Source of the DNA: Ulota crispa
Taxonomy: Eukaryota; Streptophyta; Bryopsida; Orthotrichales; Orthotrichaceae
Direction of reading: 5' to 3'
Assembly (NCBI GenBank): GCA_963920765.1
Contig: OY987242.1
Coordinates: 64,501 to 128,500 of the forward strand
DNA length: 64,000 nucleotides
In this document: in pieces, positions 12,918-64,000 of the stretch
How the letters are laid out: each line of letters begins with the position of its first letter
Numbering within the stretch: the first letter of the stretch is position 1
Made by a program: the position numbers and the translations under genes
Notes under the pieces: model-generated
Seen by the model: the letters and a program-made list of their open reading frames with translations, nothing else
Told to the model about the DNA's origin: nothing
Database searches by the model: none

Positions 12918-12967
12918 TTTAATTTCAATTCTTGAGTGATGGACACACACCCAATGCTTTATGATAA

Positions 12968-13904
12968 CCGCTAAAGGACCAAGCCCTTTTTCTGTGAAAA
13001 TTATTGATAATTGCCACTTCTAAGAGGTTTACTAAAGAGGGATTCTATGTTTTGTTTTTGGAAAACTCAACCGTAGGATCTTGCCCCATACTAGAAGAGG
13101 TACATGTGGGAAAAAAATCAGCTCATTCCACATGGAAAGGAGTAAGAAATTTATATTTAAAGTGAAAAAAAATAAAAAAAATAAAAAAATCATGCTGCCC
13201 AAAAATTTAAGAAGCCTTTTACCACTCTTATAACAAAAAAATTGCTCCACCCAAAGATGCACTTTATTTTTTCCATGTATGAGATCAAGTTAGATATGTG
13301 CTGGAGAAATTTCAAATCAATTGGAACTATACAACGTATGGAAAAAAACAGTAAGCAAAATGAAGTAGAGAATGAGTCAAAACACTGAATTGTTAAGAAT
13401 TTAATTATCAAAATGAAAAATGCAAATCCCAACAGTCATAAAGTTCTAATAAACAACCTACTTCCTTTGGTTTAATTTTTTTCCAAAATATTGAAAATCA
13501 AGTAAAATAAAGAACTCCAAAGTTTGTTTTAGAGGAGAGAATCCATAATTGCCCGCAAACAAAAACTCCTCATAACTTTCATCTCATTGATTGAAACGGA
13601 ATGATTCAAAAGCCTCCCACATACAAAAAAATCTAAAGGACCAATTTCAAAGATTTATTTCAAAAATATATAACTTTAAAGGATGTTTTTGGGCTGCCCG
13701 AACAAGTAATCTTCCCCAAATTTTCATAAATTCATGCATAACTTTTCATCAAATGTCGGAATGAAGAATAAATTAGATGCCCACATAGATCGTTGAATTC
13801 CCCACCTCCAATAAAAGTTTCAAAAAATCACACAAAATAGTTTAACCATAGGTACATGCCCAAAGTCCAGCATGTCCCTCAAAGGGACAATGGTCCTTTA
13901 GGGG
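12968..13904 (+). mobile_element. TTAA-family DNA element, subfamily A, flanked by ATAA on both sides
   Basis: The left end is CCGCTAAAGGACCAAG and the right end is TGGTCCTTTAGGGG, an inverted pair. ATAA lies directly outside both ends (12964-12967 and 13905-13908), which looks like a 4-bp target duplication that differs from the usual TTAA. The interior (937 bp) matches the copies at 32527 (inverted), 42267 and 49654. No transposase was recognised. The end layout resembles piggyBac. Confidence 0.75.
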
Positions 13905-15211
13905 ATAAAGAATATTGAAATTCCAATGATAATAGAGAATTATATCATGTGGCAAACGTACACTTGAGGTTTTATAATACAAATATGTAAACACAAAGCA
14001 TATGCCATGAAAAATATCTTGTTGTAAAACTACATAAATTGTTCAAGTATTATGGAGCACTAATTGACACTATTTTCAAAATAAGTGAATTATTTTGCAA
14101 AGCACACTAACAAGGCAATTTGAAATTATTTAGGTTACGTCAATATGTTGTGAATGAAAATATATGAATAATGTCTAAGATATTGTAACTCAAGTGACCA
14201 AATTTTTTAAAATGCTTTGTGAGCATATACATGAGCTACAGTATGTGAAGGGTGCTACATTACAAAAGTTGCAACTCCAAGTTGCTTCTTTGGGGGCAAC
14301 AAAAGATTGTGATCAAAAACATCTTTTAGGGGAACAAAGGTGAAACATAAACATATTTTGACAATTGCAAAATGACATGTTCACAATTTAGAAAACTAAA
14401 ATATAATATGGGGTCTTCCCCCTTGTTTCTTGAAGAGGGATGTATTGTCTAATTCAATATGCAATTAAAAAAAATCACATCTTTAAATTGAAAGAAGTTG
14501 CAACTTTTTCTCTTTATATGTACATACATATACATTTATACATGTGTGTATATAGAAATTCAAGCTAGTTGGTTGTCGTTGACATGTGGCAAGAGATGCA
14601 TGCAACTTCACAAAGAAGAAAGATAAATATGTAATTTACTAAATCAAAATCCTTTATCCAGTCAACAGTACTACTTCCTTAGATCTAAAGTGAGACTTAA
14701 AACATGAATCAGTGGACAAAACTCTGTTATAAAATCTTAAAGAAAGCAACGGATTTAGTGAATTTTTAGCACCTATTTAGTTCTACACTTAATGGTGGTT
14801 TATTTTTATTTTTATGGAAGATTCCATTTTTTGTCATCATGTGTTCCATTAGTTAAGAAATTACATTATGATCACATTCATTGTAATTGTGTATCAAACT
14901 AGCTAAATTGCTTCTAGAGTTATGTTGTCTCAACTTGCTTAACATTCACGAGATTATCTTGCATGGATAACCCAATTTCCTAAGCTAAAAACCTATTTTT
15001 AGTATAAAATCAGTAAATTTTGAAGTATTTGGATTTCTTTTAGAAACCATAAAAACTTGAAAATTTTCAATTTTCATTGTTATAACCTCAAAATCTTAAA
15101 TAATAATTGGTTAACATTTTGATACTCACCATGTGTCAATTTGTGTTCAAGATTCATCACTTAAATTATGCAAAATTTGTGTTTTATTTTGATTTTTATG
15201 TAAGTATTTGT
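13905..15211. other. AT-rich spacer, nothing recognised
   Basis: No gene, terminal inverted repeat or RNA gene was recognised. A TA/CA-rich microsatellite-like patch lies near 14510-14560. Confidence 0.4.
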
Positions 15212-15215
15212 TTAA

Positions 15216-15622
15216 CCCTTTAATGGCCTTGGTTGATTCTGGGGTGAGCAATACTTTGTATGGCCATTTGGGGGAAATTTTAAAACTATTGAATATAGAT
15301 GTTTACCACAGATCTGACTGTACAAATGGAAGTATCTTGGAGGGTTTAGTGTTATGCATCGTGAATTATGCTCACTCTTTAGTTGTTATATATAGCCATC
15401 TTTGTGCATTTGTTAGTGTATTTTCAGCCTATAGTCTTTTAGTTTTTTCAACCCTCTGGCCACATGCCACCTCATATTAGCCTGGTTATTGTCCTAAAAT
15501 CTTCACTTCCCAATTCCCCAGACATGTCCCCTTTGGCTAATCACCATATTCATTGCCATTCTCTTCCTACACAGGGAAAAGGGCTAGATCGACCACAAAG
15601 TGGTCAACCGGTCGTTAAAGGG
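15216..15622 (+). mobile_element. Short TTAA-flanked TIR element (407 bp)
   Basis: The ends are CCCTTTAATGGCC and GGTCGTTAAAGGG, which are inverted repeats with two differences. TTAA flanks both sides (15212-15215 and 15623-15626). The interior does not match the 0.95-kb copies. A 90-codon open frame (15208-15480, plus) overlaps most of it, but it shows no recognisable domain and starts outside the element. Confidence 0.7.
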
Positions 15623-15669
15623 TTAAATCACTAGTAGAAATCTGCGTTCAAAGTCAAGTTTTCATATCC

Positions 15670-15983
15670 AGGTATGTACGCCCATAAGCGTCAAACTAAG
15701 GGTTTTGAACATAATGAGTATCAATAAATAGCTAGCAAATTACGGAATCCTATTAGAAACAAAAAATTAATAAGTTTGCACTTTCAAATGCATTATTTGA
15801 ATACTATGAAAATAAGTTGAGAATTTCTAAAGAGCAAACTGCCATTGCACCCATAACCACTTTCAAGATTTCATGTTCACATGTTGTACATCCTTGTCAT
15901 TACATCTATTCACTTCCACAGATTTTCCAAGATTTCAAAGGTGACAATTATGGGCACAATGACGCTTATGGGTGTATATACCT
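15670..15983 (+). mobile_element. AGGTA-ended MITE, copy 1 (314 bp)
   Basis: The ends AGGTATGTACGCCCATAAGC and its near-exact inverse at the right form terminal inverted repeats of about 24 bp. The interior is over 90 percent like the copy at 23009 and clearly related to those at 40109 and 60673. There is no coding frame. Confidence 0.85.
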
Positions 15984-16233
15984 TTGTGTAGTTTCTGTTG
16001 AGTTCCTTTTTTCCAATGGAGAATCTGCGTTGGAAACAAGGAACACAACAAAAACTTCATGATATGAAAACGTGAGTTCCAATGCAGTCATCTACTATTG
16101 AATATGTAACCCTATCAACCTAAAGTGTGGTAATCAAGCAAAGCTTGTATATTGATAGTAGTTATATAATTGCAATTGAATCACTACCTTTTATAAATTA
16201 GACTTTCTATTTTGTCAAATGTTGACAAAATCT

Positions 16234-18672
16234 TCTACAATGACTTCCAACAATTCCTCATACATCTTGTTTTGCCATTCAAAGAACTTTCCTACTACAA
16301 AACATGATTGGTATTTTTTTTATTTTTTAATCATAGAAATTTGATTCTTATGTAATCCCAATCAAGCATACCAAATTTTGATTCCTCAAAATCAAAACCC
16401 TATTTTTGGTGAATTGTTTTGTATTAAATTCATGGTTTTACATAATGATTGATTGAAAAATATTGGTGATGAATTTTTGAGACTTGATTGCATGGATATG
16501 TAGGAAACATCCCTAAGCACATTTTCTATGCAAAAAATCACCCCCTTAAGAAACTAAATTTTGATCTAAAAATATTTCAATGTGACTTATGATATGCCCA
16601 AATTTTGTAAAATAGATGTTTTTATTTTTTAACTAGCTTTTCACCAAGTAAACAAAACATCATGTTCAAAGATATAAACATAGGAAAGTGCTAAATCCAC
16701 CCCACTTGTTGCTAAATTCACCTCACTTTTTACTAAATCCACCACATGCCCCACCTTAGACCCCACCCCACCATGTGTAGGAGTAGGGTGCAAGGAGATT
16801 TTGAGCTTCTTTTGCAAAAGCCTACACTTCTCATTTCATCCGGCTTCTTAATACATGCACCAAAAAATAAAATAAAAAATTGGTTCTTAACTAATTGATT
16901 TCAGTTTCATTCAATTTTTTTCACATTTCATTTGGCTAACTTTCAATTGCTTCTTGGCTCTCCCCGTACATTATTTAGAAGTTCCTTAAGGAAAAAAAAA
17001 CTTGAATTGATATGGGCACATCCGGGGTTTGAAATATGTGCACTGCTTGGGGGTAAATTTTAGAATTTAACTAGCAAAAAGCTGAATTTGAAAATTTTGA
17101 ATCTAGATTTGGACTTAGAAACCTTGATTTAGTCTAGAGCCATGAAGGAGATTCCAATTCAATAACACCCAATTCAAAAGCTTAGCTAGAGGGGGGCAAG
17201 TACTATGTTTACTTTTGTTTGTTTAAGAAAACTAAGCTTTTGAATTGGNNNNNNNNNNNNNNNNNNNNNNNNNNNNNNNNNNNNNNNNNNNNNNNNNNNN
17301 NNNNNNNNNNNNNNNNNNNNNNNNNNNNNNNNNNNNNNNNNNNNNNNNNNNNNNNNNNNNNNNNNNNNNNNNNNNNNNNNNNNNNNNNNNNNNNNNNNNN
17401 NNNNNNNNNNNNNNNNNNNNNNNNNNNNNNNNNNNNNNNNNNNNNNNNCGTACATTATTTAGAAGTTCCTTAAGGAAAAAAAAAACTTGAATTGATATGG
17501 GCACATCCGGGGTTTGAAATATGTGCACTGCTTGGGGGTAAATTTTAGAATTTAACTAGCAAAAAGCTGAATTTGAAAATTTTGAATCTAGATTTGGACT
17601 TAGAAACCTTGATTTAGTCTAGAGCCATGAAGGAGATTCCAATTCAATAACACCCAATTCAAAAGCTTAGCTAGAGGGGGGCAAGTACTATGTTTACTTT
17701 TGTTTGTTTAAGAAAACTAAGCTTTTGAATTGGGTGTTATTGAATTGGAATCTCCTTCATGGCTCTAGACTAAATCAAGGTTTCTAAGTCCAAATCTAGA
17801 TTCAAAATTTTCAAATTCAGCTTTTTGCTAGTTAAATTCTAAAATTTACCCCCAAGCAGTGCACATATTTCAAACCCCGGATGTGCCCATATCAATTCAA
17901 GTTTTTTTTTTCCTTAAGGAACTTCTAAATAATGTACGGGGAGAGCCAAGAAGCAATTGAAAGTTAGCCAAATGAAATGTGAAAAAAAATTGAATGAAAC
18001 TGAAATCAATTAGTTAAGAACCAATTTTTTATTTTATTTTTTGGTGCATGTATTAAGAAGCCGGATGAAATGAGAAGTGTAGGCTTTTGCAAAAGAAGCT
18101 CAAAATCTCCTTGCACCCTACTCCTACACATGGTGGGGTGGGGTCTAAGGTGGGGCATGTGGTGGATTTAGTAAAAAGTGAGGTGAATTTAGCAACAAGT
18201 GGGGTGGATTTAGCACTTTCCTATGTTTATATCTTTGAACATGATGTTTTGTTTACTTGGTGAAAAGCTAGTTAAAAAATAAAAACATCTATTTTACAAA
18301 ATTTGGGCATATCATAAGTCACATTGAAATATTTTTAGATCAAAATTTAGTTTCTTAAGGGGGTGATTTTTTGCATAGAAAATGTGCTTAGGGATGTTTC
18401 CTACATATCCATGCAATCAAGTCTCAAAAATTCATCACCAATATTTTTCAATCAATCATTATGTAAAACCATGAATTTAATACAAAACAATTCACCAAAA
18501 ATAGGGTTTTGATTTTGAGGAATCAAAATTTGGTATGCTTGATTGGGATTACATAAGAATCAAATTTCTATGATTAAAAAATAAAAAAAATACCAATCAT
18601 GTTTTGTAGTAGGAAAGTTCTTTGAATGGCAAAACAAGATGTATGAGGAATTGTTGGAGGTCATTGTAGAAT
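16234..18672. mobile_element. Long foldback (palindromic) element with an internal assembly gap
   Basis: The left arm (16234-17248) and right arm (about 17716-18672) are near-perfect inverted copies of about 1 kb, centred near 17690 around an AAGCTTAGCTAG core. The interior contains 200 N at 17249-17448. The piece after the gap (17449-17733) repeats 16965-17248 almost exactly, differing by one A in a poly-A run. The arms could form a very long RNA or DNA hairpin. No target duplication was seen at the ends, which begin TTCTACAATGAC. A related smaller foldback lies at 24345-24770. Confidence 0.85.
17249..17448. other. Assembly gap of 200 N
   Basis: There are exactly 200 unknown bases inside the foldback. 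The flanking sequence is duplicated in direct orientation, so the gap probably marks an unresolved hairpin or unmerged contig ends rather than missing DNA of that length. Confidence 0.95.
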
Positions 18673-18768
18673 TAAACTATACTTTTAATGGCTTTTTAAA
18701 ACCATGAGATTCAAAGGGCATCCATTTCCATAAGTCATCCAAGTTCCTATATCCACACATAACCTTAA

Positions 18769-19718
18769 CCCCTAAAGGACCAAGTGGCTATTCAACAGCC
18801 ACTTGAAATCTTGGGTAGGATCATATGAAATCAATTTTTAGTGGATTTTCTCAAAATTGTTCAACAAGGTGCAAATATGTATCCCGTAAGTGGAAATGTA
18901 ATTTTTTCCCTAATCAGATGCCCGGTTCAAAAGTTATGTTACCCAAAAGAATTTGGGCAGCTTGGGCAACTTGGGCATCTTTGGAGAATTTTATGCTCAA
19001 ACTCTCTTCAACTTTTGAAATTTGGCACATATGTAACTAAAAAAACATAATGTGCAATTGTCAAAAATATAATAATTGAGCTCTCACATCACATTTAGAA
19101 GGGAGTCAAACTTTGTTAACTATGTTTGGGTAGTTTCAAGAAAAAAAAATCCTCGAACTTCAAGCTTTATTATCTTTCAATTTATAAATCCAAAACTCTT
19201 GAAACTTTTTTTCACGAATTTCAAATGAATGACTCTAACTTTTTAGTGTTCAGATTTCAAATAAAAGACTTCCTCATTGCACAAGAAATCATGAAAGAAT
19301 GACTAATGTATTGCCAATTCACTAAACCTCCTTACACTATAGGGTGATTTAGAATAAACAAGATTCTATCTTTGCATCTGAAAAATTTCATGAGTGAACC
19401 TATCATTATATACTTGTGAATGGTCAAAAAGCTAAAATTTGTGTAGAGCAAAATTTTTAGTCTAGGAAGGGTCAAAGTCTGCTGACTTTGTTTTGTAGGA
19501 ATGACAAAAAACTATTTTTCTCACTTCAAACATTATAATCTTTCAATCCGCTTGGTCAAATGGGCTGAATTTTTTTGCACACATTAAATTATCTATTTGA
19601 CATACTTTTGTGGGATTAGAATTGAGAAAAAAGGTTTTATTTTCAATTTTGGGCAATGCACTAAAAGTTGACAGTTTCTGAGATTTTTTCTTGAAAAACA
19701 CCCTTGGTCCTTTACGGG
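18769..19718 (+). mobile_element. TTAA-family DNA element, subfamily B (950 bp)
   Basis: The ends CCCCTAAAGGACCAAG and CTTGGTCCTTTACGGG are inverted repeats. TTAA flanks both sides (18765-18768 and 19719-19722). The interior matches the copy at 58780-59720 in opposite orientation. It has only short broken frames that are shared between the two copies. Confidence 0.85.
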
Positions 19719-19722
19719 TTAA

Positions 19723-21177: not shown

Positions 21178-21211
21178 CCACCAATTTCATTCACGTGAAT
21201 GAAATTGGTGG
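21178..21211. repeat. Perfect 34-bp palindrome centred on CACGTG
   Basis: The left half reads CCACCAATTTCATTCAC and the right half is its exact reverse complement, with no loop. The centre is a G-box/E-box core, CACGTG. Confidence 0.95.
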
Positions 21212-22362: not shown

Positions 22363-22439
22363 GCTTGGTCTATTGCTTTATGAGTTTGTGGGACAAGATG
22401 AATATGTTGTGCTTCTTCACATGTCAAAAATTGTAATAG

Positions 22440-22600: not shown

Positions 22601-22664
22601 TTACTGCACTGACTCAAAAAATATGAATGTGCAATAGACAAAGCCCTCCGGCCCCTTTGTTTAA

Positions 22665-22888
22665 CCCCTAAACGGCCCATCGGCCATCTCTGGCCATATG
22701 TAAGACCGTATGTACAATGGTATTTGAGTTTCTTTGAGGGCTTTCCAAAAAAAAATATGCACCCACCATCGTACAATCCTTCAATATGTATGGTTGTAAC
22801 ACTTCATTTCCAGCTGGTTCAAACTTCTGAATATTGGTTGCGACCATGTTTGGTACTGTATCTCTAAAGCCCGAGGGGCCTTTAGGGG
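22665..22888 (+). mobile_element. Short TTAA-flanked TIR element (224 bp)
   Basis: The ends CCCCTAAACGGCCC and GGGGCCTTTAGGGG are inverted repeats. TTAA flanks both sides (22661-22664 and 22889-22892). It is too short to code for anything and is a MITE-sized member of the TTAA family. Confidence 0.8.
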
Positions 22889-23008
22889 TTAAGTCAAGGG
22901 CTACAAGGGGGTCAATTCACCCCCGCCCCTTGCGTGTTGATCCATATTCCATCTAATTGTCTTTTGCTAGACTTTTACCAAATTCTGACTTCATTTTGAC
23001 ATTGGGTA

Positions 23009-23322
23009 AGGTATGTACACCCATAGGCGTCAAACTAAGGGTTTTGAACATGATGAGTATCAATAAATAGCTAGCAAATTACGGAATCCTATTAGAAACA
23101 AAAAATTAATAAGTTTGCACTTTCAAATGCATTATTTGGATACTATGAGAATAAGTTGTGAATTTCTAAAGAGCAAACTGCCATTGCACCCATAACCACT
23201 TTCAAGATTTCATGTTCACATGTTGTACATCCTTGTCATTACATCTATTCACTTCCACTGATTTTCCAAAATTTCAAAGGTGACAGTTATGGGGACACTG
23301 ACGCTTATGGGTGTACATACCT
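23009..23322 (+). mobile_element. AGGTA-ended MITE, copy 2 (314 bp)
   Basis: The ends are AGGTATGTACACCCATAGGC and its inverse. TA lies directly left of the element, and CA stands where TA would be expected on the right. The interior is nearly identical to the copy at 15670, so these two inserted or were copied recently. Confidence 0.85.
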
Positions 23323-26682: not shown

Positions 26683-26690
26683 ATTTGGAT

Positions 26691-30643: not shown

Positions 30644-30647
30644 TTAA

Positions 30648-31751
30648 CCCTTAAAGGACAAATGGATCACCATGGCTTGCCGTGCTTGTAGCATTCTAGA
30701 GTGTTTTGCACTTGGGCACTAGTAGTATTGCTTCAAAAAGTTGGAAAAGTCAACAGTGCATGGTGCCCTCATGAAAATTGCAAGAAGGGCAGCTTGGGAG
30801 CTAGGGCAGTTGCAAGAAAAACCAAGCAGTTTTGTTGCAAATAGCCATAGTACAGGTAGTACTAGGTGGTACTATGAGCTTTTGAAATAAGAATTTTTTA
30901 AATGAAATAAAATATGGGCAATTTGTAAAGTACTTAAAGTAGCACATTTGTGAAAATTTGGACCTCAAAAAATTTTATTCTAAAAGTTGTGCACAAAAAT
31001 AGAGGGACATAAATTACCAATAAAACAACAATTTCCTTTTTCCTTTTTAGAAAATAGTAAAAAAGTTCAAAAAAATAAAATATAAATAAGCCATTTTTGC
31101 TCTATTTGAGACACTTGAACTCATGAAATTGCTTTTTTGGGAAAGTTTGTTCTCTTTCTCCAATGCTTGACCAAAGGATGGCCACTTTGAGAGCATGTGG
31201 AAGGCGTAGAATTCACAATTTCCTAAAACCCTTCTACCAATCCATGTAATGCTCTATGATGAACAACTTCCCTGATTTGGGGCATGAGATTTGCTTTTTT
31301 GGACCCAAAATAATACTAAGAACCCCCAAAATGGCCAAGGTAGACACCTATTTGGGGGCTATTTAAAAATAGTAAAACAATTTTAAAAAAACCGCAAAAT
31401 TACAGAAGGTCAATAACTATGGCATGTACCTCCTTCTGAAATTTCAACTCAAAAGAACTTGTTGAGCAAGAGTTACAAGTCAAAAAGCACCCACAATAGA
31501 GCAAGGGGACATCAAATAGTACTAGTGTTTCTTGCAATCACCCGCTAACACCATGTTTCTGAATCTTATCACAATTTGGGTTACAAGAAAAAATGAATGC
31601 ATCTCAAGAGGTAATTTTTTGTCTTCCATGATGGACCAGGTGTTTATGGTCACTTCTAAAAAAAAATCAGATGAAAATCAACTTTTTTTTTAATCACATA
31701 ATCTTTTTTCAGAGCCGGAAGATGTTTTTCGTCCTCCTTGACGTTTAGGGG
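30648..31751 (+). mobile_element. TTAA-family DNA element, subfamily C (1104 bp)
   Basis: The ends CCCTTAAAGGACAAAT and GACGTTTAGGGG are inverted repeats at the tips. TTAA flanks both sides (30644-30647 and 31752-31755). The interior differs from subfamilies A and B. A partial inverted copy without its ends lies at about 43977-44700. Confidence 0.75.
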
Positions 31752-31990
31752 TTAAGAAAAGACAACTCTAAAATTTACACTTTTTGGCTATTTTCTATGA
31801 CACATCTCTTTAATGTTGCAATGGGATAATGATTGATTAGTAGTATTTAGTTAGTTTGACCATACAAAATCACAATATTATTTTCTTTTGCTTTGTTTGA
31901 TTAAAAAATTGCTCATGCTGAAGTCAATGTGAATTATCTATCAAATGAAGAAAATTCTATTTCCTAGGGTTTACAATCTAAGCTAGCAGA

Positions 31991-32526: not shown

Positions 32527-33458
32527 CCCCTAAAGGACCTTTGTCCCTTTTGGGGACAAGTTGGACTTTGGGCATGTACCTATGGCTAAACCACTTTGTG
32601 TGATTTTCTAAAACTTTTATTAAAGGTGGAAAATTCAAAGATCTACGTGGGCGTCTAATTTCTTCTTCATTTCGACGTTTGACAAAGAAGTTATGCATGA
32701 ATTTCAAAAAACTTGGGGAGGACTGCCCGTCTTGGCAACCCAAAAACTTCTTTAAAAATTACTTTTTTTTTAAACTCAAATTTGAAATTGGTTCTTTAGA
32801 TATTTTTATTCATGAGAAGCTTTGAATCATTCAATTTCAATCATTGACATGAAAGTTATGAGGAGTTTTTGTTTGCGGGCAGTTATGGAATCTCTACTCT
32901 AAAATAAACTTTGAAGTCCTTTATTTTACTCAATTTTCAATATTTTGGAAAAAAAATCAAACTCATGGAAGTAGATTTTTTATCACAACATCATCACCTT
33001 TGGGAATAGCATTTTTCATTTCCATAATTAAACTCTTAACAATTTAGTGTTTTGACTCATTCTCTACTTCTTTTTACTTACTATTTTTTCCCATGTCTTG
33101 CAAAGTTCCAGTTGATTTGAAAATTCTCCCACACATACCTAACTTGATCTCCTACATGGAAAAAATTAAGCGCAACTTTGTGTAGATCAATTTTTTTTGT
33201 TATAAAAGTGGTCAAAGGCTTCTTAAATTTTTGGGTAGCATGGAAAAAAACTTTTTTTTCCACTTTAGATGTAAATATCTCACTTCTCTCCATTTGGAAT
33301 GAGCTTATTTTTTTCCCACAAGTACCTCTTCCAATCTAGGACAAGATCCTACGGCTGGATTTCCCAAAAACAAATCATAAAATCCCTTTTTTCTAAACCT
33401 CCTAAAAGTGGCAATTTTTAGTGATTTTGGTAGAAAAAAGGGCTTGGTCCTTTAGGGG
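32527..33458 (-). mobile_element. TTAA-family DNA element, subfamily A, inverted (932 bp)
   Basis: The ends CCCCTAAAGGACC and GGTCCTTTAGGGG are a perfect 13-bp inverted repeat. TTAA flanks both sides (32523-32526 and 33459-33462). The interior is the reverse complement of the copy at 12968-13904. No intact coding frame was seen. Confidence 0.9.
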
Positions 33459-40007: not shown

Positions 40008-40108
40008 TAGGATGTTTCAGACCTTGAGAAATGAATAAACTTTTTTGGGGATTTTGCAGGAGAAAATAGAGTATTTTATTCCTCACAATTGAATTTCCTT
40101 ACGAGATA

Positions 40109-40420
40109 AGGTAGGAGCACCCATAAGCGTCAATCTAAGGGTTTTGAACATGATGAGTATTAATAAACAACTTGCAAATTATAAGATCCTATTAGGAATA
40201 GAAAAATAATGAGTTTGCAATTTTGAATGTATTATTTGGATGCTGTGAGAATAAGTTGTGAATTTTTAAAGAGCAAATTGCCATTGTACCCATAACCACT
40301 ATTGAGATTTCATGTTCACATGTTGTACATCCTTGCCATTACATCTATTTACTTCCAAAGATTTTCCAAGATTTCAGAACTGACGGTTATGAGGACAGTT
40401 GCTTATGGGTGCTCCTACCT
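40109..40420 (+). mobile_element. AGGTA-ended MITE, copy 3 (312 bp)
   Basis: The ends AGGTAGGAGCACCCATAAGC and its inverse are flanked by TA on both sides (40107-40108 and 40421-40422). The interior is a diverged relative of the copies at 15670 and 23009. Confidence 0.85.
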
Positions 40421-42236: not shown

Positions 42237-43572
42237 AGGTAGGAGGCTCAAAAAGCAATCCGTTAATCCCTAAAGGCTTACGCAATTTTTTCCAGTGAAA
42301 GTCACTGTTAAATGTCACTTTAGGGGGAATGAGTAGAAAAGTAGGAAATGAAGTTTGTTTTGCAAATTCAACCATAGGATCTTGCCTTATACTAGAAGAG
42401 GTACTTTTGGGAAAAAATCAGGTCATTCTAGACAGAGAGGAGGGAGATATTTACATCTAAAGTGAAAAAAAAGGTTTCTTTTTGTGCTATCCAAAAAAAT
42501 TCAGAAGCATTTGTCCACACTTACATGAAAAAAATTACTCTACACAAAGTTGAGGTTTATTTTTTCCATGTAGCAGACCAAGTTCGGTATGTGTGGGAGA
42601 ATTTTCAAATCAATTGGAACTATACAACACATGGGAGAAAATAGTAAGTAAAATGAAGTAGAGAATGAGTCAAATCACTAAATTGTTAAGAATTTAATTA
42701 TTAAAATGATAAGATGAAAATCCCAACGGTTATAATATTGTGATAAACAATCTACTTCCTTAGGTTTAGTTTTTTTCCCAAGATATTAAAAATTGTGGAA
42801 AATAAAGGGCTTCAAAGTTTATTTTAGAGTAGAGAATCCATAACTGCCCACAAACTAAAACATCTCATAACTTTCATCTCATCAATTGAAGTTGAATGAT
42901 TCAAAGCTTCCCACATATAAAAAAATCTAAAGAACCAATTTCAGATTTCTATTTTTAGAATATACAAATTTTTAAGAAGTTTTTAGGCTGCCCAAATTGC
43001 CCTCCCTCCCCCGGGCAGCAAAAATTCTTGTATAACTTCTTTGTCAAATGTCAGAATGACAAAAAAATTAGATTCCCGGGTAGGTCTTGGAATTTCCCAC
43101 CTTCAATAAAAGTTTAAAAAAATCATAAAAACTAGATTAGCTATAGGTACATGCCCAAAATCTCAAGTGTCCCCCCAGGGGATAGCTGGGCATTTAGGAG
43201 TTAAGGGCTGATCTGCTTTTTCATGGTCTTCCCTAGACCAGAAGATTTAAGAGTAATTTTCAGACAAAGAGAAATGGATGCTAAATGTAACCCAATAATT
43301 TTTATATTTTTTTAGGCATTATGGAATTGTTGATGAATTTTCAAAGTTTTTTGTAGTAGGTACCTATTTAGGATTCTAGATTTCTCATAAACAATCCCCC
43401 TGTAATGTATAAAGAGATTAGGTGAATCCAATACTTGTGATTGGCTCTTGCAGTAAAAGACAACTTTTCTTTTAAAATTAGGGAGGGTCCATTCAAATAC
43501 CACCTCATATTCATTCTTGGGTTACCTATGTGACTAGTTAACTGACAAAGTTGCTTTTCGAGTCTCCTACCT
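42237..43572. mobile_element. AGGTAGGAGGCTC-ended MITE split by a TTAA element
   Basis: The left end AGGTAGGAGGCTCAAAAAGC and the inverse of the right end (AGGTAGGAGACTCGAAAAGC) agree at about 18 of 20 positions. TA lies at both sides (42235-42236 and 43573-43574). The TTAA-family element at 42267-43200 lies wholly inside, so the MITE alone is about 400 bp and is the older insertion. Confidence 0.75.
42267..43200 (+). mobile_element. TTAA-family DNA element, subfamily A (934 bp)
   Basis: The ends TCCCTAAAGGC and GCATTTAGGA are decayed inverted tips. TTAA flanks both sides (42263-42266 and 43201-43204). The interior matches the copies at 12968 and (inverted) 32527. It is nested in an AGGTA MITE. 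Confidence 0.8.
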
Positions 43573-43976: not shown

Positions 43977-44700
43977 AAGAGGATTGCAAGAAACACTTGT
44001 ACTATTTTTTGTCCCCTTCACCTCTTGCAGGTGGTTTTTGGCTCCTATCTTTTGCATACCAAGTCATTTTGACTTGGAATTTTAGAATAATGTTCACTTC
44101 AAAGTTATAGACGTTCAGTAATTTTTTGTTTTTTAAAATTATTTTACTATTTTAAACATCCCCTAAATAGGTGTCTACCTTGGCCATTTTGGGGGTTTTT
44201 AGTACTATTTTGGGTCCAAAAAACAAATCTTGTGCCACAAATCAGGGAAGTTGTTTATTGTAGAGCATTACATGGATACATAGAAGGGTTTCACAAAATT
44301 CTAAATTCCATGCCATGCACATTGTCTCAAAGTGGGCATCCATTCTCCTTGCATTGGCGGAATAAATAAAAAATTCCTCCAAAAACCACTTACATCAAGT
44401 GAAGCTACTCAAAGAGATAAAAAATGACTTTTTTTTTTGAATTTTTCTACTATTTTCTAAGAAGCAAAAAGGAAATTGTCTTTTTGTTGGTAATTATGTC
44501 CCTCTATTTTGTGCATAACTTTTAGAATAAAATTTTTCTAGGCTTGAATTTTCACAAGTATGTTATATTAAGTGCTTTACAAATTGTCCATGCTTTATTT
44601 CATTTAAAACAAGTTATTTCAAAAGCTCATAGTACTACCTAGTACTACCAATTTTTAGGATGTTTGAGACAAAATCATGAAGTGTTTCTTACAACTACCC
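43977..44700 (-). mobile_element. Partial inverted copy of TTAA subfamily C
   Basis: The sequence is the reverse complement of about 30820-31545, for example AGGTGTCTACCTTGGCCATT here against its inverse near 31340. The terminal CCCTTAAAGG ends and TTAA flanks are missing, so the copy is truncated at both sides. Confidence 0.75.
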
Positions 44701-49649: not shown

Positions 49650-49997
49650 TTAACGTCTAAAAGCCCACGCTCATTTTTTTGTGAAAGTCACTAAAATTGC
49701 CACTTTTGGGGGAATGAGTAGAAAGGTAAAGAAATTTTCTTCTTTTGAAAATTCAACCATAGGATCTTGTCCTAGACTATGGGAGGTATTTGTTGGAAAA
49801 TTTTTAGCTCATTTTAGATGATAAAGAGTGAAATATTGACATCTAAAGTGAAGAAAGAGAAAATAATTTCTATCATGCGCAAAAACTTCAAAAGCCATTG
49901 ACCACTCTTATAGCAAAAAAATTACTCTACATAAAATTGAGGTTTAATTACCCCATGTAGAAGACCAAGTTAGGTATGTGTGGTAAATGAATTGGAG

Positions 49998-50781
49998 GCG
50001 TGCCTCTAGGAGTGCACTATACCAAATTTTCAGGGGTATCCTGCGTTCAAGGCCCTATTCGAGGGGGGCTATGTAGGTAAATTTTGTGTATTTTCATAGG
50101 GCTATGTTTAGGTAAATTTCTAAATTCTTAAGATTAAATGAACCCTATGCTTCATTATAAAAAATAAATTGTGATATTTTAGAATACCCTACTTTCATTA
50201 TAAAAACATATACTAGATAAACAACAAAACTTTCAGAGCTTTAGAGTAACATGATAAGGAAACCCTACCGAGCCTCTTGCAAAGACAAGTAATACCCTAA
50301 ACCACCTTGAAACTATATTTCATCCATTATTTTGAACCACAAACTTTTCTTTTCATCCTCCAACACTAAATCCTAAATCCTAAACCCTAAACCCTAAATC
50401 TCCTTGTATCGCCACGTGTAGTATAGAGAGAGCGCCACCCATTTTAAACCCTAGGACAGTTGGCATATAGGGCGCATTGGAAACTTGCTTTGGATTCTAC
50501 ATATACATTTTATACTAAAACCTGTACTGGACCCTACCCTATTATATTCCTGGATTTTTGTTTCTAATAAAATAGCCCTATTGTAGAATTTAAAAATATA
50601 TAAAACTCATCAATACAAAATATCCTTTGTTATTTATAGAGACCATATACACATTACAATGACCCTTATTCATTTTAAAGGCATGTCAAAAATTTAGGAC
50701 CAAAGCAATTAAAATAACCCTTCATTTGATTGCACGTGTTCTTAAATAAAATGGGGAGTGCACTCCCCAAGAGGTGTGCAA
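49998..50781. mobile_element. TIR insertion inside the TTAA element, with telomere-like repeats
   Basis: The left end GCGTGCCTCTAGGAGTGCACT resembles the inverse of the right end (GCACACCTCTTGGGGAGTGCACT). No target duplication was seen. It includes a short run of (CCCTAAA)-type repeats at about 50366-50400. Confidence 0.4.
50366..50400. repeat. Interstitial telomere-like repeat
   Basis: About five units of CCTAAAC/CCTAAAT occur in a row, the plant (TTTAGGG)n repeat on the minus strand. It is short and imperfect. Confidence 0.75.
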
Positions 50782-51347
50782 CATACTTCAAAAAATCTTT
50801 GAATGGTGGAAGGTCATGAAATTTGCAAATACACTAGGCAAAATTGGAAGATTTATGTAAAATTCAGAAACTTGGATTACTCTAATCCATATGGTAAAAA
50901 TCTAGGAATCTTAGCCTACTACAACTTGGAACAAAAAATCAAAAAACAAATATACAAATTGCTCAAAAAACCAAATTACCAAATTTTACAAGGGACAAAA
51001 GGATCGAAGGGTTGGGAGTCCCCCAAGACGAGCTTCTTCCACTCTACTCCCCTTTGCTCAAGTGTCCACATCTTGTGCTACTAAGGGTTGACCCTCTTTG
51101 GAATCAACACCTACTTACAAAAGAGAGGCCTTGTCTAAACTACCTCTTCTCGCCTAGTTTCATAAAGTTCTTGATGACTTATTTGTTCAAATATTGGAAT
51201 GAAAAAAAAAAATAGATGCCAAGGTAGGTCTTTGGATTCCTCACCTTCCATAAAAATTTCAAAAAATCACCTAATCTAATTTAGTTGTAGATACATGCTC
51301 AAAATCCATTTGTCCCTTGAGGGGACACATGATCCTTTAGGAATTAA

Positions 51348-52690: not shown

Positions 52691-53478
52691 CAAAGAGCCT
52701 TGAGTTTACAAGACTAGTTTGTTTGACTTAAAATATGGTCAATTGATTATGCAAAATGTGCTCTTGGTATACCTTGACAAAAACAATAAGATAAAGCAGT
52801 AAATGTCACTACTTATGCCACATCAAAAAAATAGAACAATTCACACAACATATTTGATTTGCTGCAAATGGCATTCTTTTTTGTACTTTTTTAATGTTCT
52901 TGATTTTATGGTCGTGATTGTGTAGTCGATACTCATTTGAAACCTAAAATGAGAAATGTAACATAGTGAAATCTGTATTTGTCTCTAATTGCAATCCAAA
53001 ACAATTTAATACCATCCATAAAGCTAAATCAACCATATATACAAATATGACCAATGAACCCATTGAACAATAGCCTTTAGTGATCATTTTGTTAAGTTTT
53101 TGAAATTGTGCATGTACAAGGACAATTTCAAGTCATAGAAAATGTGATTCATTTAAAAAGCTCTCTATAATATATTTGGCAATTCTATATAAGTGGTTTG
53201 AAATACTCAACTGGAATTTGAGCTTGCTACTTTATGCGGCTATTACAACTCTTTTCTATCCAACAAAATGGTATACTAGAACACTACTACATGTTAGATT
53301 AAATCCTAGACTTACCAGCCAAATTTTTCATGAGATAAAAATTTCACATATTAAAGGTAACTTGGAACTTAGACATAGTTCTAACTATTGATTGCTTATG
53401 TTGTTACTTTCTACAAAACTCTAAGTTAACAATGTCCATCTAAATCTCTCCATATTCAGTAAATGCCAAAAAAACCAT

Positions 53479-53890
53479 CATTGACTTCTATAGTACTTAT
53501 TTCAAGAGAATTTTATTTTGACAATTATGATTTTGAAAATTTTATGTTGAGGTAGTTTGCGTAGAATCTTAAATATTGTTGGTTTCATATGCTTTTGCAA
53601 CACAAATCTTTTTTACATTGGGCATGTTAAGAGCAATAATTTTTGTTGTACAAAATAGAGTAGTGGCCTTTTGGGACGTACTTGGAACCTGGGTGGGATA
53701 TATGAGGGTTCAACTAATTTGTGTTTTGAACAAAGTTTCATTTTCATTGGCTGTAGAAGCACAATTTATTTCTTGTTTTTTGTTTTTTTTGTATCCAAAT
53801 TCTTTTTTTTGCTTTTTACAAAGTTTGGTCTTAGTGTCATAAGACCCCTCTTGAAACCCAAAAGATCTACTTTTGCTCATTACAGGTTTT
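53479..53890 (+). repeat. Left arm of a young inner inverted repeat
   Basis: This arm of about 390 bp is an inverted copy of 55190-55589 with only a handful of differences (about 99 percent by eye). An 88-codon frame (53576-53842) is mirrored in the right arm with one residue changed, but it shows no recognisable domain. Confidence 0.9.
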
Positions 53891-54660
53891 GTAAAGAGCC
53901 CTCTCGAAATCTAAGAGGGCTTTTTAAATTATAATTATTATTACTATTATTTATTTATTTTTGGTTTTTTCCCCTTTTTTGTTTTTTTTTTATTATGGAT
54001 TTTGTTTTTGTGTTTTAGGACCATTGTCAAAACCCGAGAGGCCTACTCATGGTGGTTTTGGATTCCATACAGGGCTCCTCGGATTCCAAGGAGCATTCCA
54101 ATTTTCTGCCTCAAGACCCTTCTTGGAACCCAAGAGGCCTACTTGTGGTGGTTATGGATTTTGTAAAGAGCTCCTCAGAATTGGAGGAGCACTTCTGAAA
54201 ATAGCAATTTTTTTTTTAATAATTTTTTTCCTCAAAAAGAGGTTTTTTTGTTTTTTTTTTTTTACAGATTTCGATTTTCTGCCTCAAGACCCTTCTCAGA
54301 ATCTAAGAGGCCTACTTGTGGTGGTCATGGATTATGTACAGGACTCCCGAAATCCGAGGAGCAATTCTAACAATAGCATTTTTTTTTTTCTCAAAAAAAT
54401 TGTTTTAATTTTTATTTTATTTTTACAAATGTCAACTTCGTGCCTCAGGACCCTTCTCAAAACCCAGGAGGCCTACTTGTGGTGGTTATGGGTTCTGTAA
54501 AGGACTCCTTGGAATCCGAGGAGCACTTCTAAAAATAGCAATTTTTGTTTTTCTCAAAAAAAAGGTTTTTTTTTTTTTTTTCTTTGCAGATTTCAACTTC
54601 AAGCCCTAGGGCCCTTCTTGGAACCCAGGAGGCGTACTTGTGCACGTTATGGATATTGTA
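53850..54660 (+). repeat. Tandem array, forward units of about 160-175 bp
   Basis: About six units carry CAAGACCCTTCTCGGAACCC, GAGGCCTACTTGTGGTGGTT and CTCCTCGGAATCCGAGGAGC-like words, followed by a T-rich tract. They give repeated low-complexity peptides such as KPKRPTCGGYGFCKE in open frames, which I take as a by-product. Confidence 0.85.
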
Positions 54661-54834
54661 AAGAAGTCACAAAATTTGTTGAGTGCACAATTCATGAAAG
54701 CTCAACATAATTTTGGATATTGAATAAGTAATTTAGTTGTGGTTGCTAGAAATTAGCTATAATGACCTTTTTAGAGAGACAATTGTCAAATTTATCTACT
54801 CTTTGCCTAGTAAATGCAATCATTACAATGGATT

Positions 54835-55210
54835 ATGTAGTCAACAAATTTTGTGATTTCTTTACAAAACCCATAACCACCACAAGTAGGCCTCTTGGGT
54901 TTCGAGAAGGGTCTTAAGGCAGGAAGTTGAAATTTGTAAAAAAAATTAAAAAACCTCTGTTTTGAGAAAAAATAAAAATAAAAAATGCAATTGTTAGAAT
55001 TGCTCCTCTGATTCCGGGAGCCCTTTACATAGTCCATGACCACCACAAGTAGGCCTCTTGGGTTCTAAGAAGGGTCTTGAGGCAGAAAATCAAAATCTGT
55101 AAAAAAAAATAAAAAAATAAAAAATAAAATTGCTATCTTTAGAAGTGCTCCTCGGATTCCGAGAGCCCTTTACAAAATCCATGACCACCACAAGTAGGCC
55201 TCTTGGGTTC
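54835..55210 (-). repeat. Tandem array, inverted units
   Basis: Three units of the same repeat in reverse orientation face the forward array across about 180 bp of other sequence (54660-54835), making a head-to-head arrangement. Confidence 0.85.
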
Positions 55211-55589
55211 CGAGAGGGGTCTTATGACACTAAGACCAAACTTTGTAAAAAGCAAAAAAAAGAATTTGGATACAAAAAAAACAAAAAACAAGAAATAAAT
55301 TGTGCTTCTACAGCCAATGAAAATGAAACTTTGTTCAAAACACAAATTAGTTGAACCCTCATATATCCCACCCAGGTTCCAAGTACGTCCCAAAAGGCCA
55401 CTACTCTATTTTGTACAACAAAAATTATTGCTCTTAACGTGCCCAATGTAAAAAAGATTTGTGTTGCAAAAGCATATGAAACCAACAATATTTAAGATTC
55501 TACACAAACTACCTCAACATAAAATTTTCAAAATCATAATTGTCAAAATAAAATTCTCTTGAAATAAGTACTATAAAAGTCAATGATAT
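55190..55589 (-). repeat. Right arm of a young inner inverted repeat
   Basis: This is the mirror of 53479-53890. See the left arm for the degree of match. The arms enclose the head-to-head array. Confidence 0.9.
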
Positions 55590-57093
55590 AATTTGTAGAG
55601 GCTTTGGTACCAATTGTTTTCACTTTTTTTGTTCTTAATTTTTTAGATTGTCTTTGTATAAAACTTGGTTTCATTTTAAAAAAATCATAACGTTTTGTTT
55701 TGAGAAACACATACTAAAAACTTAGAAAGAGAAGTTAGCTTCAAGAAAGCTCTCATATAAAGTCGTTATTTCATTAATTTTTAGCTTCCACTTACAAACA
55801 CATTTTTAAAATGTGAATAGTGGAGCTTTAGATTTTAGCTAGCTTTAGAGGAGGGGGATAGAAAGGGGAAAATTGGCCAAATAATGTGGTTTTGAAAATC
55901 TTGATTAATATAGGGTCACTTTTAACAAATATGAAGTAAAGGGCTGTACGCAGTAGTGCATTAGCATTATATGGCATAACACCATGAAGTCCTTAAGATA
56001 TTTGGTTCACAACTTTAGCCCACTTTTCATGTAATCATATTGTGACCATGCCAAATGCCCCCTTAGGTTTTAAAAATACCTCTAAGTGCTTGCAAGGTTT
56101 TTGTAAACTTTTATTTATTTTTGCTTTTAATGATATTTTTCAATTCCTATATTCATTCACAATAAAATGACAATTTAATGTTTTTTTTCATTTTTCTTAT
56201 TTAATAAAGCGTGAGAAAATGCTTTAGTACTTTTAATGTGATAAATTACCAAATGAATAAAATCATAGTCAATCTTATGTTTTTAATAATTTTACAAGGT
56301 TATTAGGATTTGAAGATTTTCACCACAAATAGTTCTTTGATCAAATATTTGTTCAAAAGTTATTTGAAAATGTTTTCAACATGTTAAAAGAAACATTATA
56401 TTAATACTCAAAAGTGCTAAAGCGGCAATTCAAAGTGTACTTTAATTTTAGAATTTGAGATATAAACTTAAGTCTCCTTTTATAGGGCTTATAACATTAT
56501 TTCATTGCTATCATTGTAGACTTGTATCTTTAAAATTTGAAAGTGCTCAATATTGCAAATTAAAAATTAAAGACTTTGAGTTTATTTGAATTGAGAGTAT
56601 AACAAAAGTATAGCAATGATACATGAAAGGTTTAATGTAAATTTGTATTTGATCTTTTTTTTAAAGTTGTGGCCAATACAAGAAATCTTGTACTTAATAT
56701 TTTTTATTGAAAAAGTAAATATCTATGAAATTTTATATTCTCTATTTTTAAGTATGCTATATTGATATATGTTTGTGATTTCTAAACAGGTTTGCATCAT
56801 ATTTGTTGTCCTCTTTTCATTTACATTCATCCATTTTAGTTTCATTCATCCAATCTGGTTTTCATTTATTCGTTTCAATGGATGAATTTCAAACATCATC
56901 CATTTTTTAAATTCATATAGTGATCACTTTTGTCTACTTACACTCATATGAAACTCCCTAAAATTTTATTTCCAATTTTCAAATTTTCATGAAAAGTTTG
57001 CTCACCGCTCAACGTTCACTGCTCACCGCTGAACGTTTAGTACTCAACGCTCATTGCTCCCTGCTCAGACTTTAGCGACCTTGCCTCCTATAT

Positions 57094-57759: not shown

Positions 57760-57808
<49 letters not shown>

Positions 57809-58775: not shown

Positions 58776-58779
58776 ATAA

Positions 58780-59720
58780 CCCCTAAAGGACCAAGGGTGT
58801 CTTTTGAGGAAAAATCTCAGAAACTGCCAACTTTTAGTGCAGGGCTCAAATTGAAATCAAAAACCTTTTTTCTTAATTTCAACCGTACAAAAGTGTGGAA
58901 AAAAGAAATTGTGAAAAAAAAATCAACCCATTTGACCACGCAAATTGGAAGATTATAACGTTTGAAGTGAGGAAAACAACTTTTTTTCCATTCTTGCAAA
59001 AAAAAGCCAGTAGAATTTGAGCCTTCCTAGAGTAAATTTTTTGCTCTATACAAATTTGAGCTTTTTGACCATTCACAAGCATACAATGTTAGGTTCACTC
59101 ATGAAAATTTTTAGGTGCAAATATAGAATCTAGCGTATTCTAAATCACCCTGCAATTTAGTGAATGGCAATACATTAGTAATTCTTTCTTGATTTCTTGT
59201 GCAATGAGGAATTCTTTTATTTGAATTGGAAGAATTTAAGGTTGAAGACAAACATTTGAAACATGTGAATATTTTTTTAAGAACTTTAGATTTATATATT
59301 GAAAGATAATAGGGCGTGAAGTTAGAGGATTTGTTTTTTCTTGAAACTACTTGAACATAGTTAACAAAATTTGACTCCCTTCTAAATATGAAGTGAGAGC
59401 TTCATTTTTTTTTTTTTTTTTTTTTTTTTCACAATTGTACACCATATTCTTTTGGTTACATATTTGTCAAATTTCAAAAGTTGATGCAATTTTTAGCATA
59501 AGATTCTTCAAAGATGTCCAAACTCCCCGAGGTGCCCAAATTCTTTTGGGCAACATAACTTTGAACCAAGCATCCAATTGGGAAAAAATTACATTTCCAT
59601 TTGAGAATACATATTTGCACCTTTTGTAACAATTTTGAGAACATCTAATAAAAATTGCCTCCATATGACCCTACATGAGTTCTAAAGTGGATGTTGAATA
59701 GCCACTTGGTCCTTTAGGGG
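58780..59720 (-). mobile_element. TTAA-family DNA element, subfamily B, inverted (941 bp)
   Basis: The ends CCCCTAAAGGACCAAG and CTTGGTCCTTTAGGGG are a perfect inverted repeat. The left flank reads ATAA (58776-58779) and the right flank TTAA (59721-59724). The interior is the reverse complement of 18769-19718. A long T-tract lies near 59405-59430. Confidence 0.85.
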
Positions 59721-59988
59721 TTAATTGAAAATTTTAAACGTTCTCCAATAAACATCATTCTACTTTTTCACAGCTTATTAGGACTCACTTTTGGGTACAT
59801 GCTGGGTTTGGGTCATCCCATCTAAACCAGGGCATGAATTCAAAGTGACTGCATGATTGATGAGTTGAGTCTACTTGTCAAGCATGTGATGAACTCACTA
59901 TAAATTATAATCCCTGTTCAATGATCACAAATCAATCATTGTGAGAATGTCAATGACACATAATTAATACCTTGCTCCACATGGAGTA

Positions 59989-60315: not shown

Positions 60316-60672
60316 TACAAATCCAAATATTGTTGGTTTTGGGTATACATTCCGTAGAGGAAATGGGAGCTGTACAATTTTTAGCTTCACCTGCTAAAAT
60401 CAAGCATTTTTCATTTTCAACCCGTTTTTCACAGGCATGCATCAGTTTTTTTATGAATCGCTCATATATAAATTGTAATATGTTATAATAATAATATATA
60501 TATTTTTTGAGAAATCTGGCCAATTTTTTTATTGTATAGTTTCAAGTTTCAATCAATTTTTTTGTGATATCAAGCGGCTCACAATACACTAAATGCTGGT
60601 TCTCCCTAGACCCTAGGTTGCAAGCTCAATGCCTAGTTCCACCTGTCTTGGCATGTGAGGAAAGTAGCAATA

Positions 60673-60985
60673 TAGTAGGAACACTCATAAGCGTTAGTGT
60701 CCCCATAACCGTCACCTGTGAAATCTTGAAAAATTTGTGAAAGTGAATAAATGTAATGACAAGGATGTACAACATGTGAACATGAAATCTTAAAAGTGGT
60801 TATGGGTGCAATGGCAATTTGCTCTTTAAAAATTCACAACTTATTCTCACAGTATCCAAATAATACATTCAAAAATGTAAACTCATTTTTTTCTGTTCTT
60901 AATAGGATCTTATAATTGGTTAGTTGTTTATTAATAGTCATCATGTTCAAATCCCTTAGTTTGACGTTTATGGGTGCTCTTACCT
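60673..60985 (-). mobile_element. AGGTA-ended MITE, copy 4, inverted (about 313 bp)
   Basis: This is the reverse complement of the 314-bp family (15670, 23009, 40109), with AGCACCCATAAACGTC-type ends. One base near the left tip is missing (GTAGGAAC). TA follows the right end. Confidence 0.8.
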
Positions 60986-60987
60986 TA

Positions 60988-62211
60988 GGGGTGGTGTTGT
61001 TTTCTTCGTCGAGTCTTAGCCAGGGGTAACAAATTTGATTTTCTGAATTAGCTCCAAGACCACTCTAATTTAGTACTGTGGCCGTCACAGTATTTGCAGC
61101 TTTGTAAGTTTCTATTGTAGAAGTTTCGATGAATTAAGCTTAGCTACATTTGGCGAGAAGGGTCTCAGCACATATGGAACCTCAATTGCACCATTTTCTA
61201 CATACTATAGCACTTTGTGGATGCACAGGCACGTCATGGGGTCAAATCCAGGAGTCTTCAATGAGCCCCAGCAGTTCTGTGACATCATCTCATATTTAAT
61301 TTAGTAAGCTTATAACTGACTGCAGGGAGTGCTGAATTTGAATAAGATCTGGGGAAGATAAGTTAGCAGTGTTGGATCCAGGGCCTAAGCGGGGGCACTC
61401 ACCAGGCAGATGGTTATCATAACATAGTAGAAAATGAGTGAGTTTTGGCATGACTCATGGCTAAGTTACTGCTGTTGGAGAGAGAAGACAGCTGGATCCA
61501 GTGTCCTTCAGCACCATCGTGTGCGATGGGAGCCATAGACATGCCACACACGTGGTCATTAAGTGATGAAGAGACTAGGGTACTAGACCACTGCCCATCA
61601 GAATAGGAAGTGTGGTCTTTGGATGCCTGCCCCTTTACCATACCATACTGCTGGTTTCATGGTCATGGCCTGCTCTTGGAAGGTACCCCATGTCAAGTGG
61701 GCCTTTTGGTATGTATGAGAAATCATGAACCCACACCTATATGGACTAATGTTTGCAGATGCTGCTCGTTACACCAAATGTTACCAATATTATATACTAC
61801 TACAAAGAATTGTGAACTCAGTAGTGTTAAATTGAATTTTAGCACATGTAGCAGTCCTTTTAAGTCGATCAATCTCCATACATGAATCACATTTAAGATC
61901 ATTGATGTGGATTCCTTGTTTGCACTGGCCCTTTCAAGAGCAAGTATATGACCCTCCTATACATGAATGTGAACAATTGGGGATTTTGAATCGTCACAAT
62001 AGTAGGCATCAAGATAGGATGATAAAGCACAATTTCGAAAATTTGATTTTGAAAAAAAATTCTATCATTTTCAAAAAGAACGAATCCATAAGCTAAATAT
62101 TAATTTTTGCATCAACCAAGAGGTAATGTTTTGAGCATTTATTTTTGGTTTTGGCATTTTCTTTTTTGAAAACCTCTCTCATTTACCCCTCCTTTTCTTT
62201 TTCTTGTTCCT
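60988..62211. other. Unassigned unique stretch, slightly higher GC
   Basis: The composition is closer to genic DNA between about 61000 and 61900, and several short frames exist (for example 61610-61885, plus). I recognise no domain, splice pattern or repeat ends. It could be a decayed gene or an unannotated transcript. Confidence 0.3.
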
Positions 62212-62430
62212 TTAACCTTAAAGCCCTAAACATCATTTTTTGACAACATAGCAATTTTGGGTAGGTTAACACTTGTAAAATAATAGATAAAATTTCACAA
62301 AGTTTTTAGAGGATAAGTGTCTAAGGAGTAGCCTTTTGATGCTCTCTAATGCAATATTTTTCAAGTCATTTCAATTTGTAAAAAAAAAGGAATGATGGAA
62401 TATATAATTTTGCTTGCTCAAGGGGTAGCA

Positions 62431-62566
62431 ACAACTACAAGGAAATCATGGCCAAATTTACAAATAGTTGACAAAGATTGTGACCTAATTTGCAGTATAC
62501 TATAAATTAGATCATAATTTTTGTCAACTTTTTGTAGATTTGACCATGGTTTCCTTGTAGTGGCGG
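62431..62566. repeat. Hairpin (foldback) of about 136 bp
   Basis: ACTACAAGGAAATCATGG at the left pairs with CCATGGTTTCCTTGTAGT at the right. The arms continue inward through AATTTACAAATAGTTGACAA and its inverse, around a short loop near 62500. Confidence 0.75.
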
Positions 62567-63078
62567 CCATAACTTTTTACACATCAATTGAAATTTTGGG
62601 TTCTTGCCCTTGCCCAAAGGATGAAGGGCAATGATATCTCATTGTCAAATTTTACCCAACCTTGCTCCATGAAGGCAATAGTTTTTGCTTACTACCCTTT
62701 ACTTCACCTTTGTTAAAAGTGGCCATATGTTGATCAAGCTAGTCAATACTACAAATTTTGGCCAATTTCATTTTTTTTCTTCTTCTTAAATTAGCTAAAA
62801 TCTAAACTTCCACTAATCCCATTTTAAAAAACTATTGTATGTGGGAGTTAAGAATTGTTGAAAAACTGGCTTTGTAGAAAAAATCTTGAAGCTAGTTTTG
62901 TACTCTATTTTTTAGTAAGTGTTTCCAATTCAAAATGTTATGAAATTTTTTAGGCATATGACCAGCTCTATTATGAGAATTAATCTTAAATGTTACAATA
63001 AAAACATTCAACTCTAATGGTGCAAAAGCCTCCCCAAATCAAAGCTGCCCAATAATTGAATGCCCCTAAAAAAAACTA

Positions 63079-63656
63079 CTCCCTCTATTTTTGAAAGAAA
63101 CCCGTATTTGAGAATTTTTGAGGAATTAAGGAATATTAACAACAAAATATAATTGGAGGTTATTGGATATTAGACTTAAACCATTCAAAACCCAATTTTA
63201 ATTTTTTCTAAAATTAAGGTTTTTAAAAAAGAAGAGAAAACCAGTATCAAAGTTTTGAAATTTCAAGTGTTTTGTTATTGTCACAAATGGTTAGAAAAAT
63301 GATAGATATGAAGTGTGTCAAGGCAATTGTAAGTAAAGAACAAGTTAGCCTAGTTGCCCAAGTAGTCCCATCTATAAAAAAACCAAATCTTTTTGTTAAT
63401 ATTATTAATGATTCTAGCTTAATGATAGGCAAAATTTGCAAACAAAAATCACTAAATCAAGTTTGTAATGCTAACATTAGCAATCAATGAGCATAAAAAG
63501 CCCAAAAAATATCACCAAACATACTAAGTAGTTAATTTCATTTTAGAGATAAGAGTAGGATTTATAAAAAAAATCAACTCAAAAGACAAGCACGGGTTTA
63601 TTTCTGAAACAAAAAATATATATGAATCCGGGGGTTTTTTTTTGAAACAAAAGGAG
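63079..63656. mobile_element. Stowaway-like MITE, diverged (about 578 bp)
   Basis: The left end CTCCCTCTATTTTTGAAAGA resembles Stowaway termini, and the inverse of the right end reads CTCCTTTTGTTTCAAAAAAA. TA precedes the left end, and the right flank is CA where TA is expected. No coding frame was recognised. Confidence 0.5.
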
Positions 63657-64000
63657 CATTTCTTAGCTCAAACCTTATAATCTCACAATTTGTGTAGTAA
63701 ATATTTTTCATCTTTTTACTATTGCATAATAAAGTATTCTACCACTAGGTCCTATAAAAAATTGCACTAGGATTTCATTTTCAATTTTTTTTGGTTTTGC
63801 TATCAAAACAACCCATTTTGAGTGTTTTTTAGTGAAACATAGTCATAGTACTTTAGGGGTTAATAATTAAGTTTTGTAGGACATCAAGGCTCTAGCTTTG
63901 TTTCTTCACTCTAAACCATTACAAATCTAAAGCAAAATTTGAAAATCAAACCAAATTTTAGTCTTGAAAACAAGGTGTGTTCACATACAAGTAAACAAGT

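Follow-up and report, generated by a model that had tools for sequence, protein, structure and literature searches.

The question raised by this locus is to which transposon superfamily a group of short elements bordered by TTAA or ATAA belongs, and how elements with a common tip but several different interiors could have spread side by side. Within the window, i.e., the whole 64,000-nucleotide stretch of DNA analysed, ten TTAA-flanked elements were identified (E1 to E10), each with its right end found; they span positions 12964-63863 and combined amount to 9,843 bp, or 15.4% of the window. The elements fall into six lineages, namely family A (E1, E6, E7 and E8), family B (E3 and E9) and the single elements E2, E4, E5 and E10. 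Their coordinates, which take in both flanking tetramers, are as follows, together with those of an element of another kind that lies inside E5:

12964..13908, plus strand: E1, family A, 945 bp, ATAA on both sides
15212..15626, no strand assigned: E2, 415 bp, TTAA on both sides, tips CCCTTTAAYGRCC
18765..19722, minus strand: E3, family B, 958 bp, TTAA on both sides
22661..22892, no strand assigned: E4, 232 bp, TTAA on both sides
30644..31755, no strand assigned: E5, 1112 bp, TTAA on both sides, contains a nested other element
30808..31539, no strand assigned: nested TIR element of another kind, making up most of E5, tips like GTTGCAAGAAA
32523..33462, minus strand: E6, family A, 940 bp, TTAA on both sides, 13-bp tips identical
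42263..43204, plus strand: E7, family A, 942 bp, TTAA on both sides
49650..51347, plus strand: E8, 1698 bp, family A at its ends, middle enlarged and not alignable, TTAA on both sides
58776..59724, plus strand: E9, family B, 949 bp, left tetramer ATAA, right tetramer TTAA
62212..63863, no strand assigned: E10, 1652 bp, TTAA on both sides, poor left tip

The ends of these elements stand out clearly from the rest of the window. A scan of both strands for NTAA followed by CCCCTAAAGG, allowing at most two mismatches, returned 15 sites, all of them at ends of the ten elements (15 of the 20 ends), compared to a mean of 0.8 and a maximum of 3 sites in the control (20 shuffles within 500-base blocks). 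The scan missed five ends, namely the right one of E1 (its tetramer is TTAT), both of E2, and the left ones of E8 and E10. When the two 13-bp tips of the same element were compared without gaps, 7-13 of the 13 positions agreed in nine elements and 4 of 13 in E10, which is the least certain of the ten. Across the 20 ends, information content was 1.5-2.0 bits in the tetramer (a high conservation that is biased by detection, TTAA having helped to bring the elements to notice) and 0.5-2.0 bits at tip positions 1-14; it was 0.01-0.54 bits in the ten bases outside the tetramer, so that conservation ends there.

The flanks themselves are informative about the target site. The earlier note had placed the ten elements at 12968, 15216, 18769, 22665, 30648, 32527, 42267, 49654, 58780 and 62216, all ten of which turned out to be left tips, and had reported TTAA or ATAA at both sides of each, which agrees with our data: the two tetramers are identical in nine of the ten elements (eight TTAA/TTAA pairs, plus ATAA/ATAA in E1), and E9 pairs a left ATAA with a right TTAA. 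Since TTAA reads the same on both strands, only E1 displays a non-palindromic pair, which is best read as a direct repeat. No direct repeats of 1-10 bp were found in the flanks outside the tetramer, where mean identity was 0.16-0.30, and searching the window with the joined flanks of the elements revealed no empty sites; the matches obtained were the right flank of E8 to itself and 28 bases for E9 (E=0.89). Judged from the flanking tetramers, the elements thus probably have a 4-bp duplication of TTAA, rarely ATAA. These two tetramers are described as the typical piggyBac duplications (PMC8634313), with a few piggyBac elements reported to have others (PMC10813416), and the same pair of duplications is described for tagalong (TFP3), a piggyBac-type insect element that our elements resemble as far as its description goes (PMC8634313).

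The tips narrow the choice further. Most piggyBac tips are reported to start with 5'-CCC (PMC10813416), as do 14 of the 20 ends here, with 16 of 20 starting with CC; the exceptions are E1 left, E7, E8 and E10 left, and all 20 start with C or T. Another known superfamily that duplicates TTAA, e.g., Kolobok or Sola, might also be considered as the source of such flanks. Part of Sola targets TTAA. Moreover, Sola hits are tabulated for the C-fern genome (PMC6890710), and Kolobok is described as duplicating TTAA but with 5'-RR...YY-3' termini (PMC9587614), that is, the opposite of what all 20 ends show; the view that these tips are unlike those of Kolobok, taken already in the earlier note, was therefore borne out, and we consider an origin in one of these other superfamilies to be quite unlikely. 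The exact 20-letter tip pattern had no match in viral contigs and none in prokaryotic genome contigs, and when three tip strings were searched as letters in open-licence papers, there was no title on transposons among the matches listed. The likeness of the tip to the telomere repeat (CCCTAAA) is probably a coincidence.

A third feature, unnoticed in the earlier note, is a palindrome centred at bp 24-25 from one end of the element in four of the six lineages (A, B, E2 and E4), which was located in individual elements as follows:

13873..13889, minus strand: palindrome of E1, bp 16-32 from the right end
15591..15605, minus strand: palindrome of E2, bp 18-32 from the right end
18781..18805, plus strand: palindrome of E3, bp 13-37 of the left end as oriented in the window
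22682..22695, plus strand: palindrome of E4 (weak alone), bp 18-31 from the left end
32541..32559, plus strand: palindrome of E6, bp 15-33 of the left end as oriented in the window
51307..51331, minus strand: palindrome of E8, bp 13-37 from the right end
59685..59707, minus strand: palindrome of E9, bp 14-36 from the right end

The sequence of the palindrome varies from lineage to lineage; it is its position that recurs. Tested one element at a time (best of the two ends), P was 0.0009 for E3, 0.006 for E8, 0.02 for each of E1, E6 and E9, and weak for E2 (0.058), E4 (0.16) and E7 (0.16), while a palindrome at bp 24-25 was absent from E5 (P=0.41) and E10 (P=1.0). When both ends of all six lineages were used, centre 25 came first among 81 centres, with P=0.001 against random window positions, the position to be tested having been taken from piggyBac and the first palindrome scan having been done alongside the reading of the piggyBac literature. 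The same comparison with 344 TTAA sites outside the elements gave P=0.0004, and in two further controls, one with starts shifted inward and one with a shuffle of bp 14-40, the observed value was reached in 0 of 3000 trials each. This six-lineage, both-ends test supersedes an earlier profile of four representatives that had been chosen for having a palindrome. Counting A and B as one lineage gave P=0.0052, restricting the test to these two families gave 0 of 5000, and leaving both out gave P=0.094; hence, the signal comes mainly from these two families.

The position of the palindrome is the one known from two characterized systems. In piggyBac (Trichoplusia ni), the C-terminal domains of the transposase are described as binding bp 17-33 of the left end, a palindrome centred at bp 25, in an element that also shares the TTAA duplication and the 5'-CCC tip with ours (PMC7351741); in piggyBat (Myotis lucifugus), the transposase is reported to bind a palindrome at bp 19-30 of the left end, the right end being described as without one (PMC11707139). 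In four of the six lineages here, one end carries such a palindrome close to bp 17-33, a hallmark that is described for piggyBac and piggyBat rather than established across the superfamily. Differences exist as well. The piggyBac palindrome has another sequence and also occurs, at other spacing and further in, on the right end, for which no matching repeat was found in these elements, and the left end of piggyBat is described as having three motif-plus-palindrome repeats (PMC11707139), whereas here one palindrome was sought, and found, near the tip. E1-E10 further differ from piggyBac in being without a coding region.

Sequence divergence among copies indicates that the elements are old: E1, E6 and E7 of family A differ by 17-22% (K2P 0.19-0.27) and E3 and E9 of family B by 17% (K2P 0.20). 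Based on the TTAA/ATAA flanks, the piggyBac-fitting tips and the subterminal palindrome at piggyBac spacing, E1-E10 are most likely old, non-autonomous piggyBac-superfamily elements without coding capacity that were moved in trans. The earlier note had likewise proposed a piggyBac family; the flanks and tips on which it drew, and now the palindrome, speak for that proposal, but no transposase was found by Pfam in the 38 distinct stretches of the window that were scanned, including 11 of the 53 frames of at least 50 aa that lie within elements. The scan took in a minority of the 108 stretches of at least 80 aa that the window holds. The families reaching the cut-off were only Sec16, in one exon (PF12932, E=2.4e-08), and DUF7798, in several exons (PF25074, best E=3.8e-31); nine others stayed below it, none of them a transposase.

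Alternatively, TTAA insertion and ends like those of piggyBac might have arisen by convergence in a new group of transposases. The lack of a transposase among the scanned stretches is in line with such a group, and so is a tip that is not letter-for-letter that of piggyBac, but convergence would have to account for three separate agreements with piggyBac (the target, the first tip bases and the palindrome position), and we regard it as very unlikely. A true duplication of only TA, as in Tc1/mariner-like elements, with the outer T and inner A representing target preference and tip, is compatible with the TTAA/TTAA pairs taken alone, since TTAA is self-complementary, but it requires an extra mutation for the ATAA/ATAA pair of E1 that a 4-bp duplication does not, does not predict the palindrome position, and is highly improbable.

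The earlier note had described the interiors as unrelated, which does not hold for families A and B. Leaving E8 out, the two families have nearly equal lengths (940-958 bp), and their members align in the same orientation over approximately bp 142-295, with scores of 63 for E6-E3 and 51 for E7-E3 (null maxima of 31 and 30, respectively); the remaining same-orientation pairs were at or near the null (E6-E9, 36 vs. 34) or below it (E1-E3, E1-E9 and E7-E9). The ends of the two families are also alike beyond the tip (E7 right with E3 left, z=6.0; E9 left with E6 right, z=5.5), these uncorrected scores being among the best of 152 cross-family pairs, of which some other high-scoring ones are A-rich. 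Given the interior alignment and the resemblance of the ends outside the tip, A and B look like old, distant relatives as opposed to unrelated sequences sharing ends. An inverted match between A and B interiors (E1-E9, score 50) was discarded as a poly-A tract.

The TIR element nested in E5 has a second copy, with the same GTTGCAAGAAA-type tips, at 43982-44695. E8 combines A-type ends with an enlarged middle that does not align; by eye, this middle (49984-51163) seems to hold a further nested element, with ends bearing AGTGCACT, and a short array of CCCTAAA/CTAAATC telomere-like units lies at 50362-50400.

The elements themselves, their identical flanking tetramers, their common tip and, in four of the six lineages, the position of the palindrome are features of the DNA from which a mechanism may be sketched. 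Under this mechanism, a piggyBac-type DDD transposase, presumably encoded elsewhere in the genome, would recognise the CCCCTAAAGGACC tip together with the palindrome centred about 25 bp in at one end. The element would then be excised via TTAA hairpins, probably seamlessly, and joined to a new TTAA, or rarely ATAA, with duplication of the four bases, the transposase presumably acting in trans. Mobilisation of all elements by one transposase in trans, as suggested in the earlier note, is plausible; the lineages share a tip, but they differ in their palindromes. A more speculative scenario, which we consider possible but unlikely, is that a land-plant genome has kept a long-lived piggyBac system of its own. 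A single 13-bp tip would there go together with several palindromes at fixed spacing, and separate non-autonomous lines within the one genome would have been moved by related transposases whose C-terminal DNA-binding domains had been exchanged, as is seen between piggyBac and piggyBat.

The host is probably a plant. The Sec16 and DUF7798 exons and the short CCCTAAA-type array at 50362-50400 are plant-like in appearance. In a plant, the elements would place piggyBac, a group known mostly from animals, among hosts from which reports of it are rare; in an animal, they would be nothing unusual. The remark in the earlier note that piggyBac activity is not something land plants are known for is fair as far as activity is concerned; however, 1,230 PiggyBac repeat-annotation hits are tabulated for the C-fern genome (PMC6890710), and a beetle paper mentions piggyBac as occasional in plant genomes, naming red algae (PMC12732532). 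A review on plants lists PiggyBac among their superfamilies (PMC10794571), and a survey of 207 plant genomes reports five main superfamilies of miniature elements, piggyBac not among them (PMC12550479). None of the open-licence literature consulted described the ends of a piggyBac element from a land plant. Therefore, should the elements be piggyBac and the host a plant, current schemes for plant miniature elements would miss a group that fills 15% of the window. If the assignment to piggyBac is right, the host lineage should also have, or once have had, a piggyBac transposase, and the palindrome at bp 24-25 would offer a cheap sequence test for piggyBac ends without a surviving transposase.

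Finally, the window contains several other repeats. An inverted duplication at 16233-18671 (955 aligned bp, 99.7% identity) surrounds a 200-N gap (17249-17448), and the sequence at 16965-17248 is repeated at 17449-17733 on the other flank of this gap; the inverted duplication is possibly an assembly artefact. An element of 313-316 bp occurs in four copies that are 84-96% identical (15670-15983, 23007-23322, 40107-40420 and 60675-60987), with tips like AGGTA...CACCCATAAGCGTCA; of the four, the copy at 40107 is the only one bordered by TA at left and right. Positions 53477-55587 form a 2.1-kb inverted repeat, with arms of 427 nt at 96% identity and tandem units of 161 and 145 bp inside. Lastly, part of the interior of E10 (62686-62952) matches, in inverted orientation and at 74% identity, positions 55677-55952, which lie outside the ten elements.
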